DNA of 64,000 bases from Cliona cf. orientalis (taxonomy: Eukaryota > Porifera > Demospongiae > Clionaida > Clionaidae). Position numbers and translations under genes: made by a program. The notes beneath the pieces are model-generated. The model was not told where the DNA came from and did no database searches. It worked only from the letters and a program-made list of their open reading frames with translations. This document shows positions 1-60,900 of this stretch, in pieces. The stretch's first letter is position 1; each line of letters starts with the position of its first letter. The stretch is from assembly GCA_963930775.1 (NCBI GenBank), contig OZ005693.1:868001-932000 (forward strand). Reading direction: 5' to 3'.

Positions 1-579
1 TAGTAAGTAGACAACATTATTGTAGCTAGGTCAACTTACCTCAACGTCTTAAGATTAGCCATTGTCTTGATGGCGTCGGACAGGGCCTTGGCTCCTTCAT
101 CGTCGATGGAGTTCTCACTGAGGCTGTGAGTGGAAGGAGAGGCCGACCGCCATGACACACTAACTCACCTAGCTAGTCTAGTAAGTAGACAACATTATTG
201 TAGCTATGTCAACTTACTACAACTCCTTAAGATTAGCCATTGTCTTGATGGCGTCGGACAGGGCCTTGGCTCCTTCATCACCGATGGAGTTGACACTGAG
301 GCTGTGAGTGGAAGGAGAGAGGAAGACACCGACCGCCATGACACACTAACTCACCTAGCTAGTCTAGTAAGTAGACAACATTATTGTAGCTAGGTCAACT
401 TACACCAACTTCTGAAGATTAGCCATTGTCTTGATGGCGTCGGACAGGGCCTTGGCTCCTTCATCGCCGATGGAGTTGCTCCTGAGGCTGTGAGTGGAAG
501 GAGAGAGGAAGACACCGACCGCCATGACACACTAACTCACCTAGCTAGTCTAGTAAGTAGACAACATTATTGTAGCTAC
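1..579 (-). repeat. Tandem array of single-LRR exon cassettes
   Basis: Three head-to-tail units begin at 1, 179 and 365 (178, 186 and 186 bp). Each holds one 84-bp exon (40-123, 218-301, 404-487) plus intron. On the minus strand each exon has an AG acceptor (cactcacag) and a GTAAGT donor and encodes one ribonuclease-inhibitor-type leucine-rich repeat with the constant core DEGAKALSDAIKTMANL. Exons are symmetric (phase 2 at both ends), so units can be gained or lost without frame change. The two complete introns differ only by an 8-bp deletion and one substitution. Repeat similarity ends at about 579, and at base 1 the sequence is still inside a repeat unit, so the array continues out of the window. 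Confidence 0.9.
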
Positions 580-3500
580 TCTCTAGCTGTTAATTATAAT
601 AAGTAGGTAACTAGCATTAAGTCTAGGTGTTTATTAATGTTGTTATTGTTAATAAAAACAATTTAAAGGAATTTTAATCTTATCACCATGGCAACAATAG
701 TGAGGAATAGTGATTGATTAATTATTGTACCGGGCAAGGTACAAGTACGTGGTGGTAAAATTCAATGTTGTCATGGCAACCACATTAATCACCGGATGTT
801 ATTAAAGTCAATTAACACCGCTAGGCAACAGCTGTATTTCGCTAAGGGCATAGTTGTTGCCTTAGGCTATGGCGATTTCAAAAAGAAGCCCAAAGCTATT
901 GGTTTAAGGCAAAGCTGACTCGTAGGCTACTTTAAATTCAAAAACGTTTGTTCGTCTGCTCATAGATAATTTGCGTAGTCTAAAGGGCAGGCTACTGCTG
1001 TCAACGACGCCCTTCCCTCGAAGGTAGCGACGATGTACGCAGTTAAATGGCAGTTTGTTTTTTTTACAGTATAGGCTCTGGCCTATTAAAGGCTTTTTAA
1101 AACTGCGAGTGGTGAATTGCACCATAGATAATTTAGACTACGTTACATTTGTGGCTATTAAACAATTAGCTGGATAATGCATGCGCGGCTAAAAGAATGG
1201 GGGGTTCGTGCTCAAAATTATATAATTTACAACCTGGCAAAATAACTAAGCTTACACGTACCATTTTCCTTTTAATAAATGTGTCCACGAATAGTGCGAT
1301 ATAGTCAAGCCTCTCAGTCACGTCTATCACGACACAGAACTTTAGCTGCACCACCTACTTTCATTTTTTACTTGCACAAAAACACTGGCCAGTAAACGTG
1401 CAGCTGCCAGAAATTAAACTTCCCACCGCGTACGTGATATCAAATTTGATTGGCCAACTGCAACACCAGCGAGCCCCACCCAACTATGCACATGCACGTG
1501 CAATGCCTAGCGAGCTAGCTACACCCTCCGATCCGAGTGCGCGCATAGCTATAATATAGAGAAGAGTCTAGTACACCAGACTTTAGACCAAGTAACCTAT
1601 GGCCAGACTAGCCTAGCGACAAATTCACGTACTTAAGATATACAAGGTCATATTTTTTATCCTTCCTGAATAAAGCCTTGCACCCATCAGCACCCATGGA
1701 ACAGCCTCCTAGGTACACTTCGAATTGTCTACAATGGGTGAGAAAGTAACCCACAGACAGACAATCTGCTGGACTGAGGCTGATATTCTGTAGACCTCTC
1801 AGCTTCCCTTTGAGTTCCTTGGCTACCAGCTGACACAGAGTCTCATCTTGAGCTTCAAAGAGACAGTGTAGCAATGAGAGAAGAAGCGGTTGGGATTTGT
1901 GGCCCAAGCTGGAGCCTCCTGAATCCAGATCAGAGTCGGTACCAGAATGAGGTGTTAATACTGTCGCTTTCTTTTCTTCCATGCACTTCCGTACAACTCG
2001 GATAACGATTTCATCCATTCCTTGTGTTTTAAGTTTAGTTTTGGCAGCATAAAATTGGAACACAGCGCTAAAGCGAGCCCGACCAAAGAGTTCCTTGAAT
2101 TGTGCCACCTGCTCACTCGGATCCATCTTGGTAGCCATGTGAATGGCCGCCAACAGTTCCTGTATGGAGAGATGGAGGAAGTTGTAGGAGTGTGATGGCA
2201 TTCCACTAGCAAAGCTTTCTACTCCCTGAAGTAAACCAAGAGTGTTGAAACTGTGTTCAAGGTTAAAGGTTATATGGTCTTCTATCACTCCCTTGTATGC
2301 TATCTCACAAATATGTTCAAACTGACTTTGAATAGTAGTTGGAAGCTTATCCAGTGACTTTATTCCACGTATATCAAGTTGCTCCTTCTTCTTTTTCAGA
2401 TGCCGAAATATGCAGTTACAGGTAAGTGCAGAAAAAATGCCAAATTGAGTATGTGGAAGTACACCATCACACTTGAAAAGGTGGACCAGGATGCTGGCAT
2501 TCAAAGGCAAGTAGCAGCTGCCTTCTACAAATGGGTTTTCTTTGATTCTTTGTTGCAGTTGCTTGACCTTGCCGTGATCATCTCCCAGGCATCCAGTAAA
2601 GTACTTCTGCAGTTCAGCTTTTGTGAAACCCAAGATTTCAATTCGAGTATTAACAAATCGATGAAGATTCATTGACGAGATGGGGCGAGACGTGATGACC
2701 ACAGAGCTTTTGTGTAGCTCTTTGCAGTCTAGTATGTCTCTGATGATGGAATGGCCTGGTGCTTTCTCTGGTAGTTCATCCCAGCCATCGAAAATGAAGA
2801 GAACACCTTCTCCATCACGAGTAGTTATCTCCTTCTCTGCATTTTGTCCCATTGTGCCGTTTCGTTTTGGTAACAAATCAGTTATGCTCTTAGCATTTTG
2901 AACCACTTCTTCACGTAATTTCACCAGTATGACTTGACTGTATTCTTTCAATAATCGATCAGCTACCCACTCATGGCAAATGTGCAGAGAGAGGGTACTT
3001 TTTCCACATCCTGGGGCTCCTTCAATCAATATTTTCTTTTGTTCAGATTTTTCAAAGATTTGTTCAAGTGTGATGGGTTCCTTTCTTCGTAAAATATCAT
3101 CTATCTTGCCTGTAATAGTCTCACGTATGAAATGATCATCGATATTTCTTCGCTGCACTTGTTCCGGCATGATCATTGCCAAACTAAATACTTTATCAGT
3201 TACCGGAGGAGGCCAGTGGTCATGGCCACTAAAGCTAGCTTGAGTCTTGGCTTTGTAGAGTGATTTCAAATATGCAGTAAACTCTTCTAATTTGTCATCA
3301 GATTCTGTGACTTCAGACTTTCTATCATCAGCTACAGTTATAAGAGCATACAGGATAGTAAACAGGCATAAATTTCATCTTGCGAAGTTTTATTCACCAT
3401 GCAATGAGCTAAGCATCATCGATATCGTACACTCATTATAGTAGCTCATAATAATATTATAGAACCATTAATTTTAGAATTAAGCTTGCTTGCATAATAT

Positions 3501-5678
3501 TAGTATACCTTCCGCATTTGAGATAAGCTTAGATTGAAGAGCTACTCTGATAATTTCTTTAGTTGGTCTTGGATTGTTTCTGAGCCAGTGCGTAATCATT
3601 TCTTGAAGGCAGCCGCCAACCTTTCTGTTGTTTGCCTCAATTGCGTCAAGTGTACCAGTGTCCACACACAACTCGATACCTATTGACTTCCATCTGGCAC
3701 GATAGTCCCACATCTCATCAAGCACTTCTTTTATATTGTTAATACTGAGGACATCTGCATTGCATCAATTTTGATTCTACTGATAATGTCTCTAAGTATA
3801 CTGCTTCAAGATGCTTACCTTCAGTATCACATGCTTTTGGCTTAGTTTCCTTCTGCTGGGATGCAGTCAAACTTCTTGCTAAAAATGTTAATATGCATAG
3901 AACAGCAGTATACCAAAATTTAATATTAAACACTGTACATTCCAAGTACACAGGATGCATCTGGTCAGTTAATATACATTTCTACAAGTACTACTTTTTT
4001 GAAGCTGGAATGCAAGGATCAAATAGACTGCATGGTCACTTCCTTGGCCTGTGTGTACAGGCTGCATGCTTAATCAAAAAAATTCTAAGTCGTGAATGAC
4101 ACATTTTTATATTATAGAGGTAAAAAAATATGCTTTATTATAGGCTATCATCCACATTTCCACGGCAATGCCTGGACACTTGATACAATTCAAATAATTA
4201 GCTACTACCTGCTGGGTGATTTAAAGCAATTTGTTTGGCCAGCTCATGATTATCTCCACCACTCTTTCTGTCGACAGCTTCCACCAGCATCCGCCATGTG
4301 GGTGGACCATGTTTCTTCTTGTCGTACTTTTGATTAAGCCACAGGAGCAACACATCTTCGAGACCATCCGAATCACTGGGATGTTCATCACGAATCTTTC
4401 GCAAGTCCGTTATTTTCAAATTCAGTGATCGACCAAGATTGTAGTACCTTGATTCTAAGGGCAGTATCTCCTCAATGATTGTGGACAAATCATCTTCGTC
4501 TAGGATGAGCAAATTAATTCCTCAAGATCATGCAGCTGATATTATTGATAACTAGCTTACTCAATTCAGTTGTATCAATGGCATCAAAATTAATATCTGT
4601 AAATGAACATGATATAAACATACACTAATGTATCAGGCTATCAATTTTGTTGTATCATCAAGCACTGTTATAATATCATACAGTACTAATTATTATACCT
4701 CCAACAGGTCCAGGGTTCTCCTCGACATCTCCAGATATCAGCAGTAGAGATAAGATGACAGAAGCTGCTACTGATAACGCAACATCCAGCACCGCTTTTG
4801 CCACTGCCAACACCCATGTCCCCTGGAGCTTGGTCATTATCACAACTTCTACTTCAGTATCAACATAATGCAGCTTCTCCACCAAGTCCTGCTTATTGGC
4901 CAGGGCTTTCCATAGAACACTCAAAGATATCAGACAGTCCACTGTCTGTATGACTGCATGCATAATAACTATACTTATTACTAGCTATTATAGATGTGAA
5001 GATTTTAAGGAGTCATGCATACATAGTAGTACTATAATATGCATAATGTATAATATTATTATTGTACTATGTATAAAAATTATTATTATTACACAAACTA
5101 CATCATGTATTAAGTGTATGTATGTTACGTATATACATTCAAACATATCATGCAGAGCACTCCCCACAGCTATAGATAGCTACCTGAGAGGATCAGCCAG
5201 TGGTCTGGATGCATGCGCATTGACGAATTGATCATTTTCAGCATCAGGAAGATCGAGTAGTAAGCAAAGCAAGTTCTGAAGGAGAGGCTCTCTGATAAAT
5301 CACCATCGATTCCAGCTTTTGATCTCCTGATGGCCATGGATAATAATTGGTAGATCAGAGCAGAGGTAATCTGAAGGATCAGGGTGAGAACGAAGCCAAG
5401 ATTGACCAAATACATTCTATCAGGGATGGTGCCACCTTTGCAAAAATCTGCAAAATTAAAAATGCATACATCACTGAAATGCCGACATTGTGGCAAGCTA
5501 AAAATTGTGTTGACTATGCATACCACTCACTCAATAGTGGGAGGTGATGTCCCCTTGCTACTAAAGTGCGTAGCCCAAGATTGACTCCAATTGACAGTAT
5601 CAATAGAAAAAATGTTGCTACTCCTTGACTCAGCGTCAAAGATCTTTGAGTAGTCTTTCCTCTAAATGGTGACCTCAT
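40..5678 (-). CDS. NLR-type immune receptor (TM module - 2A - Death - Death - NACHT - LRR), 3' end beyond the left edge
   Basis: Predicted cytosolic pattern-recognition receptor of the NACHT/STAND family, made as a 2A polyprotein. Exons in transcript order: 5678-5531, 5447-5184, 4953-4699, 4596-4561, 4499-4209, 3878-3819, 3754-3509, 3331-1633, then LRR exons 487-404, 301-218 and 123-40. All junctions before the NACHT exon are phase 1 and all later ones phase 2, so the chain reads through without a stop (999 codons plus two bases before the LRRs). Order of parts: membrane module (about aa 1-219), 2A motif, Death-like domain 1 (about 235-331), linker, Death domain 2 (352-433), NACHT with Walker A GAPGCGKST near 538 and Walker B LFIFDGWDELPE near 615, then 28-residue LRRs. 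The start could instead be an in-frame ATG at 5753, adding 25 residues. In known NLRs, NACHT oligomerises on ligand sensing and Death domains recruit adaptors; the ligand here is unknown. Further LRR exons probably lie left of the window. Confidence 0.88.
1633..3331 (-). other. NACHT exon of the NLR gene
   Basis: A single 1,699-bp exon, typical of NLRs whose whole NACHT is uninterrupted. It carries Walker A (EGAPGCGKST), a Walker B-like FIFDGWDE, the sensor-1-like VVITSRP, and a winged-helix/helical region ending in an LRR-like cap (GCSMGADGCKALF). Acceptor at 3332-3333; donor GTACGT at 1632-1627 (phase 2), which joins in frame to the LRR exon at 487. The reading frame before base 3269 is open to the acceptor, so no internal start is needed. 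The downstream intron (488-1632, about 1.1 kb) shows no further LRR exon by eye. Confidence 0.9.
3509..4596 (-). other. Two Death-fold domains of the NLR gene
   Basis: Four small exons, all phase 1-1: 4596-4561 (36 bp linker), 4499-4209 (Death-like 1), 3878-3819 (60 bp linker), 3754-3509 (Death 2). Death 2 is the clearer one: motifs WKSIGIELCV, LDAIEANN, CLQEMITHWL and PTKEIIRVAL follow the six-helix Death pattern. Death 1 has YNLGRSLNLKITDLRKI, EDVLLLWLNQKYD and PPTWRMLVEAV. Symmetric phases allow exon shuffling of the domains. Death domains mediate homotypic adaptor binding; DED/CARD alternatives for domain 1 cannot be excluded without a profile search. Confidence 0.8.
4706..4735 (-). other. 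2A ribosome-skipping motif (SGDVEENPGP)
   Basis: Codons read S-G-D-V-E-E-N-P-G-P, a full match to the 2A consensus D-x-E-x-N-P-G/P, in which the ribosome fails to form the final Gly-Pro bond yet continues translation. It lies near the 3' end of exon 4953-4699, in frame with the membrane module before it and the Death domains after it (P-V-G-D-I-N-F...). 2A-like sequences are known from RNA viruses, some non-LTR retrotransposons, and N-termini of some invertebrate NLRs (reported in sea urchin, there with a short signal-like sequence). Skipping activity here is inferred. Confidence 0.85.
4736..5678 (-). other. Multi-pass membrane module upstream of the 2A site (unrecognised family)
   Basis: Exons 5678-5531, 5447-5184 and 4953-4736 encode about 210 residues with several hydrophobic stretches: GVATFFLLILSIGVNLGL in exon 1, LVNLGFVLTLILQITSALIY and FAYYSIFLMLKM in exon 2, a stretch across the exon 2/3 junction (WLILSVIQTVDCLISLSVLW), and a long one running directly into the 2A motif (VALSVAASVILSLLLI). 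There is no classical cleavable signal peptide: the N-terminus is basic (MRSPFRGKTTQR). Three to five membrane passes are plausible. I do not recognise a family. If 2A skipping works, this part is released as a separate integral membrane protein; if it fails, it would tether the NLR to a membrane. Confidence 0.7.
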
Positions 5679-5814
5679 CTTGAATGGGCGGCCCAGGGCA
5701 CACCATGAAGACCCAATGCGGGCTCTCCACTCTCCAATGCTCCAATATGGCATTTCTCAGTGTCACAGCAAACCTAAAATTAGTCACCAGTCGTAATGAT
5801 AACCTGATGGCACT

Positions 5815-7246: not shown

Positions 7247-7753
7247 TCATTGAGTTTTATTGCAGTATACGGAAAATTAACGCCCACGCTTGGAGGACAA
7301 CGCGGATTTTGTCTATGGCAAAATGTATAGAGGTCGTGTTTGCAGCTAGTTTGTCGACAAACGAAGGCTCCGCTCACTTGCGCCTTACAGTATGTTAAAT
7401 AGTACCGGGTGCGCTATGACATATTTCTGTGATAGCTGGAACTCTGCTGGAGGTATGGCATAAACGGTGAGAAACACTGCTGATTAGTACAATCCTCCAT
7501 AGTGGTTGTCCTCCAATGCGGCTTTTGCGCGCGCCGCCGAGTAACGTAACCGGAGTTATACGGATTCAGCTTATTCGGGAACCCGGCGTAAGGTGCGGCT
7601 GGCTAGACGCTGTTTTAATGTGCGCAAGGCCGTGCCCAAAGGGGGCGGAGCTCATTCTCGTGACGTGCTACCGTGGGATCCAGATATAATACGCTTTAGT
7701 GGTAGGTGCTGAACGCATTCGCCGTAGTGCCTGGATCCAGTAGGCAGGCAGTG

Positions 7754-10700
7754 ATGGCTAGTCACCTTCTTCGCATCAGGAATGCCTCCCAGCTGGTGTT
7801 GGTCTGCTCTGGCAGAGAGAAGGCGCTAAAAGGAACATCCATGCAGAACCTGGCCATCCTCGACATCCAGGAGGTGGGCGTGGCCAGTGGGCTGAGCATA
7901 GCTGTGGACAGAGAGGGAAGGATAGCAGCCATTGGTCCAGATCATGAGGTGGACTCTAGAATGGATGGGTGCTCATTTGAGCGATGTATTGATGCATCAG
8001 GGATGAGCGTGGTACCAGGTCTGGTGGATGCACACACACACCCTGTCTGGGTGGGGGACAGGGTACACGAGTTTGCAATGAAGGTAAGGAGTTAATGGGT
8101 TAATTAATAGGAGCATACCCCTTCCATAATAGTTAAATAATCAACGTACAGATCCTTTTCTTAATGATTCTCCACATACTTATTATGCTATGTTGAATGA
8201 TTTGTATAGGCAGTCTATGTAATGGGGACATGTAAAGTAAATTTAAGAAACTTTCATCCCATACCCTCCCCTGGTATAGCTGTCAGGTGCCACATACATG
8301 GACATTCATGCCAAGGGAGGAGGCATCCACTTCACTGTGGACTGTGTTCGTCAGGCTAGCATTGACCAGCTCTACAGCTCCCTCTCTGAGCGTCTCTCGG
8401 CCATGCTACGCTGTGGGACCACTCTGGTGGAGGCTAAGAGCGGCTATGGGCTCGACTTTGAGAACGAGTACAAGATGCTAGAGGTGATTGAGAGGGCAAA
8501 GAGAAAACACCCAATTTCAGTATCGACAACATACTGTGGAGCTCACGCTGTGCCCAAGTGAGGGGATTGGTCTACCATGCACATGCATATCGATAGCGTA
8601 TTTTAAACTTCTTCTTTCCATACATAATTATAGGGGCAGCACAGCTGAAGTGGCCACTCAGAATATCATTGATGTTCAGATCCCAGCATTGAAGGATCTC
8701 TGTAGCTCTGGTTCTGTCTCCATCGACAACATTGACGTGTTTTGTGAGACGGGAGTGTTTGACACAGACGCCTCTCGGAGGATCCTGAGGGCGGGGCAGG
8801 AGGCGGGGTGGAAGGTCAATTTCCATGGAGATGAACTCCACCCAATGAACTCAGGAGAGGTCAATTCTGGTTATCAGTATTAAATAATACCATATTTCTT
8901 CTAAAAATTTGGCATGAAAATAATAATATTGCTTTAGCTTCGCCGAATTTTTAGTGGTTAATATTCAACATTCTGTCTGCGTGCGTATTCCATTCCCGTT
9001 TATAGCATAATAATATTATACGCATGACGACCTTTGCTGAAAATTAGAGACTATTTTCAATCATTCGGTAAAGGGTTCCGAATAATTAGAAGAGCCAAAT
9101 TTTTAGAAGAAATACGGTATGCATAATCAAAATGATGTATATTGGAGCAGCAAGTTGCTGCTTCTACCTTGAGTTGGCTGCACAAAATAATAATATATCG
9201 ATGACCTGCTGTGAGAAAATGGACAATTTGGGGAACGAATAAAATCAATTCTTATCGTGATACATGACGTTGTAATGTCCAACTTGTTTTCTACAAATGT
9301 AGTATAGTAGTGTATCCACAGTGTACAGCCACGAATACCAGAGCAAACTACCATAAATCGCGAATATTTCGTTGTTAAAATATTTTCAGACAGCCTGGCT
9401 TGTGCGAAAATTAAATGCACGAAAATACATACGCAATATTAATGATAATGCGGTACAGGGTCGTTTGTCTGAAAATTATTACCCCGCGCGCATGCGCAAG
9501 GGGGTAAAGTAATCGGTTGTTGTTAGCACAAAAATCGCCATATCTCGAGGTCTAGGCACCTGAGCGACTAATAAGCACAATGAATCAGTCGCATTTGGCG
9601 AAAAACGAGCTTGAGTGTGCCTCGAATCGAGGGATATGGTCCACGAGCGTCAAAAATAGTGCCTTTTTGTTAGCCTTCGTAACCACGCCTATCGACAGTG
9701 CCCACTCAATGCATTATGCATACAGGCCTTGTGCTTTCTGCTCATGCGCTGAATAATTATGGATGGTAAAGGTCGTCAATAATGCTAGTGGCACACGTTT
9801 GGCTGGTGGCTATATCCAATGCAAAGCCCCATCGAATCAGAATGTAAGATACCTATATCTACCTAGTCTAGATCTGGTGCAGAGAGAGATTCAATAATGT
9901 TTTGGCTGATATCACCAAGAGCCCTGTATTATACAACCAGGGGCTTATGGGGTCTATAAGTCCTTGATTCAACCAAGCAACAACAAAAGCAGACCTATAG
10001 ATTGCGCAATGTGCGCGCGGGGTATGTGCTCTATAGAGCTCTAGTTTAACATGAAAATTTATCGCATGAATATTTTAGACATGAAATATTCACGATTTAC
10101 GGTATTGTGTATGTGTACATTACAATAGTTATTACACTCCATACACACATGTACAACAACCTACATACCACTAGCCAGAATGGCCTCTTTTCTCGCTATA
10201 CTCTACAGCTTGGTGCAGAGCTGGGGGCCCATGCTGTCAGCCACCTGGAGAATGTTAGTGAGGCGGGGATAGAGGCCATGGCCCAGGCTGGAGTGGTGGG
10301 CGTTCTGTTGCCAACCACCGCATACATACTCAGGCTCCACCCACCTCCCGCTCGGAAAATGATCGAGAAAGGTTGGCTGTCACACCATTAATATTTATGA
10401 TGATGTAATGTCCATTTTCTTAATATTATTGAAAATGATGCTGAATGATGATGTAATGCACTATCAATATTCATGCAGGAGTTGCAGTTGCTCTTGGCAG
10501 TGATTTCAATCCCAATGCTTACTGCATGTCCATGGTAAGAGAATAATTATAGTACTATTCTTTACCTAGGGATGGCATGAAAATAAAAAGATATGGAGGT
10601 AGTTGCAGCTGCACCCATCATGTCTTAATAATGACATCAAACTTTCATTAAATTGTAATAATAGTCCCGGCAATAATGGTGTCCTGTTTAGAACACAACA

Positions 10701-47622: not shown

Positions 47623-50600
47623 TCATAAATCGGTAACCTCCTCGAAGAGTCCAGGGTAGGAGGACCAGATCTCCTTTACGAGGTCGAGGTCCTTCGTTCC
47701 CTCGCTGCCTTCCTCGTGAGCTATCCTGTTGAGGCAAGCCGTGAGAGCCGACTGCCGGTGCTTGTGCTCCGAGTAGGGGGTGGAGCCGACGATACGACGG
47801 AGCAGCTCGAGGTTGTGGGTACGTACCTGTGTGTGTGAGTGGGGGGAGTGTGTGTGTGTGTGTGAATGCACAATGTATGTTGATCGTTTTATGCTAATGG
47901 AATGCAAGGTTAAAAAATAATTATGATTTTAACTTTTGCATAATTTTCTGGTATAAGTTGTCATCGTCTACACTAAGATACATACAATTCCTAGAACGGG
48001 CATTTCTTGCGCTAATTAGTTGCATTTTATTAGCATAAAAACGGTACTCTCTCTCCCTCTCTCTGCCTTACCTCATCTCCTTGGCTGAGATCTGTCAGTT
48101 GCCTGGCAACGATATCGATGAGCACCATCATGTCCGTTGTGTAGAACATGCTTGATGTCGAGGTGTCATGGAACACGTCCAGGAGGAACTTTGTCATGGA
48201 ATCGGGACAGCATGGCTCCGCTATAGCCACTGGATCCTCTGTGGGAGAAGAAAGAATCGATTAAAATTTGTATTAGTACACACTGTATGTACCGCTCAGT
48301 ATTTGCACACAGCTATAATAATATTATTAATTTAAATACCTCCTCTGTTGATGATGAACATGAGTTTCTCACTGAAGTTGCGAGGGTTGGGTCGCTGCCT
48401 GAGGGCCTTCATCACCAGATTGGTGGAAGGATCTGCATGTACATGTACATGCACATGTATGTCAAGATACGGCAATACACCAGATATCTCTCTCCCTCCC
48501 CCCTCAATTGATCTCTCTCCCTCACGAACACCCCTCCTACCTGTGAAGTGTTGGTTGAAAGACAGTATCATGTTGAGGAAGGCATCCGGGACCTGGTCCT
48601 CCTCATCTTCCTCTGGCGGGCTCTCTATGCAGTCCAGCAGGAACAACACATACTCCTCATCCCATTGGTCTGCAGGATCGATATAGTCACATGATTGGTC
48701 ACATGACTGGTCACATGTTATATGTGTATCTAGACTCACCGTAGACAGGTAGTGGTACAGCCTCAGCCGTGGAGAAGATCATTGTGNNNNNNNNNNNNNN
48801 NNNNNNNNNNNNNNNNNNNNNNNNNNNNNNNNNNNNNNNNNNNNNNNNNNNNNNNNNNNNNNNNNNNNNNNNNNNNNNNNNNNNNNNNNNNNNNNNNNNN
48901 NNNNNNNNNNNNNNNNNNNNNNNNNNNNNNNNNNNNNNNNNNNNNNNNNNNNNNNNNNNNNNNNNNNNNNNNNNNNNNNNNNNNNNGAAAGATAATCGAT
49001 GGTTTTTGGTAATTATTACAGGGGCGGGGAGGGAAGGAGAGAGAGAGAGAGAGAGGGAGAGAAACGTCTTACTCTAGAGTGCTCTGGTCAGCTGTGTAGA
49101 ATCCTCCCTGGGCTGCGGCTGCCTCATGGAGGCGTTGGATATTCGAGTCAATGGACTTCAGCACCTCAGTAAGAGCCTGAGGGATACAAGAAAAAAAAAC
49201 TCATAGCAGCCGTACATTTCAGAAATTCTAAGAAGGAGGGGGGGGGGGGGATTCAACCTTAGCCTAGGGGGATCCTTGTGCTCCCACCCTCCAAATACAT
49301 AACGTCCCTGGTTAATTAACCAATTAGTTAATTAATGGGGACTTACCCCACTGTCATCTATTCCTCCGTTAGCCTGTGGTGCTGTGTGTCCGTCCAGGAG
49401 ATCAGTCGCCTTCTGCTCTTGAGCCGTGTCTAGTTTATCGATGTAGTTGACGGGCACGAGCCCTTCTTTCCCTGAATGGCCGCGCATCATCCACCAAGAC
49501 ACATCCGTCTTATCAACAAGATACAGCTACAGTGGAAATGATTATATATTATTTATTTACTCTTGATATAAAATTTAATGATGTATAAATATGAAATGTG
49601 ATAAGAGATATTACGAGTGAATTATAGAATATTGTTTGAGAAACTTCACATAATATGTGTACATGTACCTCAATAACTCCGAAAGAAATGTATGAGCATT
49701 TATTGGCCATCACCTAGCAACCAAAGTTTTTATAGGCAAATTGCCGGCCACCACAGGGGTGTGGGTGATCATAGGGTAGGCCAATGATGAGAGGGGGTCA
49801 TGGGCCAATAAGACAGTTACAAGACCTTAATTGGGGTGCATTCGACCATGCATCTCATGCACCCCAATTAAGGTCTTGTAACTATAACGTACGTGTACAT
49901 GTACATGTATATATGCACACTCACTGCATTGAAAACTTGTTAAGATGGCCACTTAAATAGCTAATTGTCTGACAAATATCAATTGTTCTGTGATTGTCTG
50001 CCATTAGTGAAAACTACTGTGGGTGGACAATTAGTGGAGAAGCCATCACAATGGACACTCCCACCTAGCAGACACAAGCACCATCCCTTCCACAGTCCAG
50101 GTACCGAGAATAATAATATGGATAAAATTTTTTTATTTGCTCAGAGATTTTTTGCATGGGCCATCCCTACATTAATAGTGCTATGAAGGACAGGGTTTCG
50201 GATTGTAGAGGTCAAGCATTTCGAACTTTCAAGCCCACAGGCTTTATTTGCATACATTGTGGCTCAGAAATCCTTTGAATCAATTATCACAGCATGAGCC
50301 GATCGAAGATGGGTACACTCTCTGTGTCGTCAAATCGAGGTATTGTCTTACTGAGCGATTAATCACAAAATACCACGATCACCGAAATTTCAAAATCTCC
50401 CGTCACTAGTGAATATAATATTATTATACCCGAGCAGGTCAGCCAAAGATGTAAATGTATGTATGTACAGATACAATGAACAATATATTAACAATAAATA
50501 TTACTAAGTCTTAACCAGGCATCACAAAAATAGCCTTACAAGATCAGAGAATCCCAAACAGGATATGGAGATGGTCACATGCCACAGTATAAACATGCAA

Positions 50601-57981: not shown

Positions 57982-60900
57982 ATGAACGTTCTAAAGGCCT
58001 ACAAGAAAGACGATGAAGATAGTAAGCAACAAAAAATATTCGCCTCGGTTCTGAACTATACGAATTTTCAAATTATTTGTCTTTTTTTTTGCCGAATAGG
58101 TGGGGCCAACCCATTTCTTCATCTTGAAAAGACTACCGTCCTTCAGGAGGTTAGGCTCCTTCGAGATAAATTTATTCTAGACAAAAATTTATGAAAACGG
58201 CGCATATTGTGTTCACTACAGGCTCGCTCCTTCAATGACAATATCATCAATGCCAGGAAGTGTGCCGTCATTTTGACCAAGATACTCTACCTGCTCAATC
58301 ATGTATGTGTCCTTGATTTATATGATTTCTTGGTACTCTTTATCTACTAAACCTTATGCATCTTGCCAGGCTTTTTCTATGTGTGATCGCAAGGGGCTTA
58401 TAGACCCCAAAAGTCTATAAGCCCTTGGTGATAGTAAGCCTTAGAACCCAGTAACGCCAGGGAGGGAGGATGGGTGAAAATTCCTGATTTTTTTGGCAGT
58501 AAAAGATATCGATAATTATGGTATTTTAATAGTAGATTGAGAAAACACTGAGAAATTCCATGAATAGGGAGCATTCATAATTTCTGCAGGGAACTCCTCT
58601 CAGTTCGACGGAGGCTACAGAGACATTCTTTGCGGTGACCAAGCTGTTTCAGTCTCAGGACCTGACCCTCCGTCGACTCGTCTACCTCGCCATCAAGGAG
58701 ATGTCCAAGATTGCTGATGATGTCATCATCGTCACGAGCAGTCTGACGAAGGACATGACCGGGAAGGAGGACCAGTATCGAGCATCGGCCATTCGAGCCC
58801 TCATCACCATCACTGACGTGAGTTGGTGTGTGTGTGTGTGTGTGTTTTGAGGTTGATTTTTTCGTAAATTTTATAATCGGAGTACCGTAGATCAGGTTAT
58901 TTTTGCCGGTAAAATATTTCGCTTGTAAATTTTTGCATAGTCTAAATTTCGTCACCAGACTTAGCGACCAAAATAGGTATTGGTCGACGTACATGTACGT
59001 TGCACAAAATATTTCGCGTGTTTAATTTTCGTCGGAAAGGGTCATCGACGTAAATTTTTTTAACAGCAAAAAATTCACAATCTACGGTATTCTTTTTGCA
59101 TGTGTGTGTGTGTGTGGAGGTATTGATTGTTCGAGTTTACTATTATTTTCTTGTCCTACCTGCTCTATCTGTGTTTGTACAGGCTAGTATGATCCAGGCT
59201 ATTGAACGCTACATGAAGCAGGCCATCGTCGACCGCAACTCAGCTGTCTCCAGTGCTGCCCTCATCTCCTCCTTCGTAAGCCTCTTCATAATCCATTATA
59301 GCAGGGTTTCATAGGGGTGGGGGGTGGGGGTGCTGAAAATTGGGTGGAAATATCGAGAATTGGTTACATTTGATCCATCATCCCTCCTAATTTCATGATA
59401 CATCACTAGTACCTTCCCCCCACCCCCTAGAAAGATTTCTGAATGCCCCCACCCCCCCCCCCCCCCCCCCCCCCCCAAAAATACAAATAGCAAAGCTAAG
59501 TGATGGCTGTATGTCTTGCTCTATCTATAGCACTTGTGTGTTCGTGGGAGCACGGAGATAGTGAAGCGTTGGGTGAACGAGACCCAGGAGGCCGTCTCCT
59601 CCGACAACCTCATGGTGCAGTACCACGCCATGGGCCTGCTCTACCATATAAGGAAGAGGGATCGACTGGCCGTCACCAAGATGGTTACCAAGCAGATACG
59701 TTCCTCCCTGCGCTCACCCCACGGCTACTGCCTGCTGATACGCATCGCCTGTAAGATGCTGGAGAACGAGGAGAGGACTTCGAATACCATGCTCTATGAC
59801 TTCCTTGAGACATGTCTCAGGCACAAGAGTGAGGTACATAATATTGAAAGTATGAGAGAGAGCAAGAGAGAGAGAGAGAGGTGACTTGATAGATTGTTAC
59901 TTGATATAATTATTGTCCCCCCCCCCCCCCCAACAAAAAAAAACCATAAAGATGGTTGTGTATGAAGCTGCCAGGGCGATGGTGAACCTGAAGAATGTCA
60001 CGGCCAGGGAAGTCCAGCCTGCTGTTTCAGGTACATATGTGTATAGTGCAAGTATTCCATGACCATGCAATGAAAGTTAAATATTTAAACAAAAGCAAAA
60101 TATCGACTGTTTTTTACCCGCTACCTTCATTTGTTCCCAGTCCTACAGATGTTTTTGACGTCAGCCAAGCCAACCATTCGTTTTGCTGCTGTGAAGACAC
60201 TGAACCGCATCGCCATGATCCACCCGGATGCTGTGACCTCTTGCAACGTTGACCTTGAGAACCTCATCTCTGACAGCAATAGGAGCATCGCCACGCTGGC
60301 CATCACCACCCTGCTCAAGGTAAGGTCAGGCAGGGAGAGGGTGGTGGGCACCAATTAGGAAATATCATTCAATATTATCTCCCCAGTAGAAATTTACTTT
60401 TCTGTGGTTATGAGGTAATTGTGGTGTAATGTATGATGAAACCTATGGTGTAATCTCTTAGGTAATCTATGAGGTAATTATGAGAAAATCCAGGGCCTCG
60501 CTGGAGCCTTTCTGGGACTTGAAAATCAGTAAATATGTAGAGTATCTTACGCGCGTATCCAGCAAATACATTACAAGCTGAGCGCTACTTTCTCTGAGAA
60601 GTACTGTTGGTTGAACTTCACGTGTTTCCTTGGCTTACGTAATGCCGTGGATAAATAAAGCTAGCCTTGCGCTATATATAGCACGCATCACTGTCACAAG
60701 GGGCTGGCCCGCACGGTGACTGCAGCAGCGTGACCAACCTGAAATTCGGAAGGAATACTGTGCTGTCGAGTTCGTCTCTGTAATTGAAGCATCGAAACTT
60801 GTCGCTATCAAGGTTGAGAGTCGATCTCTGACGCCATCTCCATGATTTCTGGGGCCAGCATCATGAGCGTCGATCGATGTGTACGCATTCTATTGACGAC

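Follow-up and report, generated by a model that had tools for sequence, protein, structure and literature searches.

The minus strand of the 64,000-nucleotide stretch of Cliona cf. orientalis DNA analysed here (the window; C5:868001-932000 in an assembly of 216.8 Mb and 149 contigs) harbors a gene which quite probably encodes a host two-protein polyprotein, consisting of a leader and a receptor split from it at a 2A motif, with the leader-2A unit representing a family-wide device.

Architecture of the window gene

Within the window, eight minus-strand exons can be joined into a stop-free frame of 3,074 bases (1,024 codons). All seven introns have GT/AG borders, and a GT donor closes exon 8. 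This model bears out the earlier note on this DNA, which placed a hydrophobic leader, a 2A, two Death domains (here termed Death-like) and a NACHT domain in one frame, followed by LRRs. In the joined frame, the 2A divides a leader of 244 residues from a receptor half, of which 780 residues lie within the joined part. Phase-1 junctions had been claimed throughout; this holds up to the NACHT domain, with phase 1 after each of exons 1-7, but the NACHT-to-LRR junction is of phase 2, the exon 8 donor fitting LRR exons that start at 487, 301 and 123.

The leader and the 2A are encoded by the first three exons. Exon 1 (5531..5753, minus strand) comprises the ATG at 5753, an N-terminal module (MPYWSIGEWRARIGSSWCALGRPFK), a basic stretch and hydrophobic segment 1, and exon 2 (5184..5447, minus strand) carries hydrophobic segment 2, a weaker stretch recognized by eye and the onset of the following segment. 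The remainder of that segment is located in exon 3 (4699..4953, minus strand), together with a polar loop, the final hydrophobic stretch (LDVALSVAASVILSLLLIS) and the 2A, the exon encoding ...SVILSLLLISGDVEENPGP-VG. In the 2A motif DVEENPG/P (4706..4729, minus strand), the bond predicted to be skipped is that joining Gly 244 to Pro 245.

The exons neighboring the 2A encode Death-like, NACHT and LRR sequences. A short linker without Met (DINFDAIDTTEL; exon 4, 4561..4596, minus strand) precedes Death-like domain 1 (exon 5, 4209..4499, minus strand; Pfam Death: 20.1 bits; e-value: 7e-4), and a second short linker (exon 6, 3819..3878, minus strand) precedes Death-like domain 2 (exon 7, 3509..3754, minus strand; Pfam Death: 14.1 bits), both domains falling under the Pfam cut-off of 22.6 bits. 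Eight further pieces were compared with Pfam, a Death match being obtained in three, all under the cut-off, and none in the other five. Exon 8 (1633..3331, minus strand) encodes the NACHT domain (74 bits against a Pfam cut-off of 26.7; e-value: 1.7e-20) and the helical part after it. LRR exons are found at 404..487 (28 residues), 218..301 and 40..123 on the minus strand, their ends having been set by eye, and more exons are possible outside the window; when concatenated, the three LRR pieces match LRR_6 with 51.5 bits against a cut-off of 23.4. The receptor half is Met-free over residues 1-85, and its first Met, at residue 86, lies within Death-like domain 1, so that a complete receptor requires translation to enter upstream of the 2A. 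No viral domain above the Pfam cut-off was found in the searched pieces.

By eye, the introns between the LRR exons (window 1-540, minus strand) are near-identical, which points to a recent duplication of exons in tandem. Adjoining the NLR gene, plus-strand frames at 7706-8883 resemble, by eye, what we take to be an amidohydrolase, perhaps imidazolonepropionase. A run of 200 N occupies positions 48787-48986.

Start and hydropathy of the leader

The ATG at 5753 is conserved at all 19 loci having exon 1, each with an in-frame stop at most 55 codons ahead of it, and sequence conservation begins near this ATG. A second in-frame candidate, the ATG at 5678, located 75 bases downstream, was rejected as the start, the codon reading ATC in locus L010 and ACG in L021 and L022. 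The leader length of roughly 219 residues given in the earlier note is as such superseded by 244 amino acids, and the 25 residues added show the strongest conservation within the entire leader.

On the Kyte-Doolittle hydropathy scale, four segments of the leader rise above the threshold, and a weaker fifth can be seen by eye; residues 1-47 carry eight K or R. The leader is probably a hydrophobic, multi-pass protein. Assuming a cytosolic N-terminus, four segments would leave a fused receptor in the cytosol, while five would place it outside. The leader has no match in Pfam and none among solved structures at an e-value of up to 1, and the structure model of one of its relatives, P0048, is poor (mean pLDDT 59).

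The 2A motif and its sequence context

A six-frame scan of the window identified a single DxExNPGP motif; NPGP occurs just once more, at 60487 on the plus strand, closely flanked by stops. In the window gene, D(V/I)ExNPGP stands in frame between two coding parts. Across the 216.8-Mb genome, the D-x-E-x-NPGP pattern has 153 matches and its reversed control none; on this count and on the motif-blind exon-3 search given below, a chance motif was rejected.

The sequence context of the 2A was compared in 39 copies from the fetched loci, 20 of the window subfamily and 19 others, with positions counted back from the last Pro. Leu 13 is found in all 39 contexts, including the 19 outside the window subfamily, and Leu 14 in 32/39. 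Gly 9 is likewise invariant, having been built into the search pattern for part of the sites. Position 11 is Arg in seven contexts and Ile in 19; the window 2A has Leu at 13 and 14 and Ile at 11. Changes at R11, L13 and L14 of an urchin 2A, R11A included, have been reported to reduce recoding (PMC4981915). With Leu 13 present in 39/39 contexts, the hydrophobic stretch ahead of the motif belongs in part to the 2A context itself and, taken alone, is therefore no sign of a force sensor.

Thirteen near-identical DIEVNPGP sites, perhaps belonging to a retroelement, are located on contig C1 of the genome (G000) between 18.0 and 35.5 Mb.

The leader-2A unit across the genome

All 18 other GDVEENPGP sites and two DIEENPGP sites were fetched, giving 21 loci with that of the window. 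Leader exons 1 and 2 are present upstream of the 2A exon in 19 of these motif-chosen loci, the exceptions being L024, whose fetched stretch did not reach its module 7.7 kb upstream, and L026, which has a different leader. Conservation of the motif within motif-chosen loci is circular, and a search with the module and a motif-blind search with exon 3 were used instead.

The strict pattern for the N-terminal module (EWRARIGSSW) has 41 matches in the genome and none in the control. For 39 of the 41 modules, a 2A follows downstream on the same strand at a distance of up to 8 kb, while none has one upstream or on the opposite strand, as counted with 148 listed of the 153 2A sites. The two exceptions are L045, where the motif reads NVEENPGP, and L046, without a 2A in the 2.2 kb fetched. 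Module-like sequence missed by the strict pattern can furthermore be recognized by eye upstream of the 2A in L035, L038, L039 and L040. The motif-blind exon-3 search recovered 26 genomic copies (27 candidates scored), all free of internal stops, of which 25 run into D(V/I)EENPGP at listed 2A sites; the 26th is the NVEENPGP copy. Exons 1-3 join in frame in all 14 modelled copies, 13 of which have phase-1 joins together with an AG exon-2 acceptor. As judged from these genomic sequences, the leader-2A-receptor architecture is conserved and family-wide.

These counts bear on the very unlikely alternative that the motif does not skip and that a single membrane-anchored NLR is made. Retention of D(V/I)EENPGP in 25/26 motif-blind copies and of Leu 13 in every context fits selected skipping, and the NVEENPGP copy shows that a change of the motif is possible; such an anchored product would nevertheless have company in the sponge NLR architectures with transmembrane domains reported in PMC12909245, and upstream context can block skipping on the endoplasmic reticulum (ER) (PMC2978324).

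Several copies deviate from the common pattern. In L045 (C1:1617700-1619600), NVEENPGP replaces DVEENPGP, and the module, leader and Death-like exon frames are open. In L021 (C5:1033000-1042500), three in-frame copies of the final hydrophobic leader stretch precede the 2A; the exon-2 acceptor of this locus is AA, and its Death-like exon contains stops. The leaders of L015 and L028 are broken. Two 2A-Death copies with equal scores, at C5:1023584 and C5:1123680, lie 100 kb apart and represent either a recent duplication or an assembly repeat; neither has a strict N-terminal module within 8 kb upstream.

Relatives of the leader and other leaders

Two profile searches, the first of which scored the best 7,996 candidates by shared words, returned 56 and 117 leader relatives, respectively, amounting to 140 distinct proteins (sources ena, lgn and jgi). 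Among these, the module is present in 89 by a looser pattern and a 2A in 21. The distant relatives are about one third identical to the window leader over the aligned part and still hydrophobic, some of their frames possibly including an intron. In P0048 and P0106, the module, the hydrophobic segments and the 2A occur in one uninterrupted frame, with module-2A distances of 142 and 144 residues, so that the assumption of splicing can be dropped for these two; they share 51% identity over all of P0048, which shows that the frame is coding. P0118 is similar, with a module-2A distance of 153 residues, and may read through an intron. Among viral contigs, 41 stretches matched a pattern, none of which was confirmed by tblastn.

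An urchin-type gene, with transcription or translation starting in exon 3 (MTKLQGTWVLAV...), only a short 2A signal leader, and exons 1-2 belonging to another transcript, is an unlikely reading in light of these relatives. P0048 and P0106 run from module to 2A without interruption, exons 1-3 join in frame in every modelled copy, nearly always with the AG acceptor, and a listed 2A lies downstream of 39/41 modules. A Met does stand just ahead of the last hydrophobic stretch in exon 3 in 21/21 copies, and a short form of this kind would be similar to the urchin 2As, N-terminal and 26 residues long (PMC4981915), but the distant relative P0055 lacks Met at that place.

Beyond the window subfamily, L031 (DVESNPGP) shows the same anatomy at low identity, with separate exons for the module, hydrophobic sequence and the 2A, then Death-like exons and NACHT, and has three phase-1 donors with fitting acceptor candidates. 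L026, L043 and L044 have module-free leaders in one frame with the 2A, followed in L026 and L043 by a Death-like match; in L044 a Death match in frame with its own 2A reaches 21.7 bits, just below the cut-off. The leader of L043 (C15:615700-617900), which lies ahead of the Death-like exon, combines a single hydrophobic segment with a long part that is charged and perhaps forms a coiled coil. In L033, a long hydrophobic frame precedes DVELNPGP, with a Death-like exon recognized by eye and no Pfam match. Two loci carry tandem 2As, 370 bases apart in L035 (C10:758700-762000) and 204 bases apart in L036 (C10:772900-775500), joinable in frame via phase-1 sites before a Death-like exon; if joined, they would give three products.

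Selection on the leader

Nei-Gojobori dN/dS was pooled over 14 modelled leader copies, the pairs of which are not independent. Omitted from the 21 were L015 and L028 with broken leaders, L011, L023 and L027 with unmatched splice patterns, and L024 and L026, which have no exon 1, whereas L021 was kept despite its AA acceptor. The pooled value for the whole leader is 0.37. By part, it is lowest in the module (0.06) and rises over the last hydrophobic stretch (0.27), the remainder of exon 1 (0.35) and exon 2 (0.46) to the loop encoded by exon 3 (0.53). These values indicate that the leader copies are under purifying selection and that the leader is a conserved protein sequence.

The leader may serve merely as a tail that docks the ribosome on the ER, tunes skipping and is discarded after synthesis, without a role as a protein, a serious possibility that we nonetheless regard as appreciably short of even. 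The hydrophobicity kept by relatives of about one-third identity (some frames of which may include an intron), as well as the hydrophobic leaders before the 2As of L026, L033 and L044, which by eye are dissimilar, would agree with such a tail. However, the first 25 residues are almost invariant in the subfamily, and this near-invariance of the module (dN/dS 0.06) exceeds the need of docking alone. In alignment A2, whose rows were picked by leader similarity and are biased towards module-bearing ones, 17 of the 19 invariant columns furthermore fall within the first 25 residues of P0048, at a mean column identity of 34%.

Coupling of the 2A to Death-like domains

Searched across the genome, the pairing of NPGP with a following Death domain, to which the earlier note had pointed, recurs. 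Of the 148 listed 2A sites, 63 are followed on their own strand by a Death-like match at a distance of up to 3.5 kb, compared with one that has such a match upstream and none with one on the other strand, while 85 have no Death-like match among those listed. The Death-like matches comprise the best 150 of 391 candidates, of which 149 were used, leaving out one that hit the L021 exon for a second time. The Death (best 150 of 1,292) and NACHT (best 103 of 490) family lists were excluded from the counts. All of the top 12 matches (at least 86% identity to Death-like domain 1 of the window) have an upstream 2A, followed by 17/22, 16/41 and 16/74 of the successively lower-ranked matches. The 2A thus characterizes some, but not all, members of the Death-like set.

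Of the 40 2As with a module upstream, 36 have a Death-like match within 3.5 kb, among the matches listed. This count, and the position of 39/41 modules upstream of a 2A, make it hard to credit that the leader-2A unit is a recent passenger of retroelement origin, an idea which could appeal to the 2As present in non-LTR retrotransposons (PMC4981915) and to the 13 DIEVNPGP sites on contig C1 as a candidate element. The introns of the leader and the purifying selection on it argue further against such a passenger.

Proposed production of leader and receptor

For the two-protein polyprotein that we favor, the ribosome would be brought to the ER by the first membrane segments of the leader. On reaching NPG/P it would mostly skip the bond, releasing a membrane-protein leader that ends ...DVEENPG, and would then continue into a receptor beginning at Pro. 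Where skipping fails, the receptor would stay fused to the leader, and the topology would decide whether it is bound to the membrane or positioned across it. In this way, Death-domain-type proteins throughout the family would be put behind a common membrane leader by the leader-2A unit. An active split of leader and receptor at the 2A is likely. Of the earlier proposal that a membrane protein and an NLR are made via a 2A, the encoding in one frame and the probable multi-pass leader stand and extend to a family; equal amounts of the two products, a fusion tethered on the cytosolic side and a regulatory switch set by skipping are further possibilities.

More tentatively, with a prospect that we place slightly below even, the 2A may be a general host device in this genome, yielding dozens of Death-domain-type polyproteins with several apparently unrelated hydrophobic leaders and at least two tricistronic genes with two in-frame 2As. 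A membrane leader, in many cases bearing the common, almost invariant module, would then be made together with a cytosolic signalling protein, with skipping on the ER setting the membrane-bound share.

Relation to known 2A systems

The occurrence of 2As at the N-termini of sea urchin NLRs, mentioned in the earlier note, is published, together with a signal function (PMC4981915), and a cellular 2A before an NLR is as such a known kind of arrangement. The model described for SpNLR2A includes termination at the 2A (Roulston et al. 2016, PMC4981915). The window gene resembles SpNLR2A in its DxExNPGP before Death-NACHT-LRR, in the hydrophobic stretch ahead of it and in Leu 13 and 14, and dual localization by incomplete skipping, as proposed for SpNLR2A, is proposed here also (PMC4981915). 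The urchin 2As tabulated in that paper are 26-residue N-terminal leaders, others being placed "within the N-terminal region" (PMC4981915). In contrast, if translation begins at 5753, the skip site of the window gene is preceded by 244 residues, which include a conserved module and four to five segments of hydrophobic character, and its layout forms a gene family in which two sampled genes carry two 2As. A long conserved multi-pass leader before an NLR 2A was not found among the matches listed in the literature searches, which returned mostly titles and the starts of abstracts. As far as these searches reach, the long membrane leader with its own conserved module, the several unlike leaders and the tandem 2As are new.

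Some of the NLR genes described in sponges encode transmembrane domains, and N-terminal Death domains are found in others (Dysidea avara, PMC12909245, and Amphimedon as cited there); the genome analysed here, whose window gene has introns and domains of animal type, resembles such published sponge NLR repertoires. That paper treats the membrane part as giving a membrane-bound NLR, and the word "skipping" is absent from its main text.

The published cellular 2A genes that were found are urchin NLRs with short leaders. If true, a conserved leader-2A-receptor family would provide a natural case of one immune-receptor message giving two proteins of different location, and would allow the effect of translation at the ER on soluble versus membrane-bound receptor to be asked directly. 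The NVEENPGP copy, the copy with the tripled helix and the tandem 2As are natural variants that offer ready test cases.

Like viral 2A polyproteins of the foot-and-mouth disease virus type, the window gene has one frame with a 2A between two different proteins; unlike them, it is an intron-containing gene of host type that encodes NACHT and LRR domains. Translocon-docked ribosomes are able to carry out the 2A reaction (de Felipe et al. 2010, PMC2978324), and the reaction can be inhibited, with fusion as the outcome, by sequence lying 28-48 residues away from the catalytic centre (PMC2978324). The matching residues of the window leader, 197-217, span the loop and run into the last hydrophobic stretch. 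Such inhibition at the ER by upstream sequence provides an experimental precedent for membrane context modulating skipping, and PMC2978324 offers the best published support found for membrane control of skipping. With the artificial signal-bearing 2A polyproteins of that work, in which upstream sequence can likewise inhibit, the window gene shares an ER-targeted part upstream, here a predicted one, and an untargeted part downstream (PMC2978324); unlike these constructs, the window layout, known here from sequence alone, is natural and conserved in a genome.
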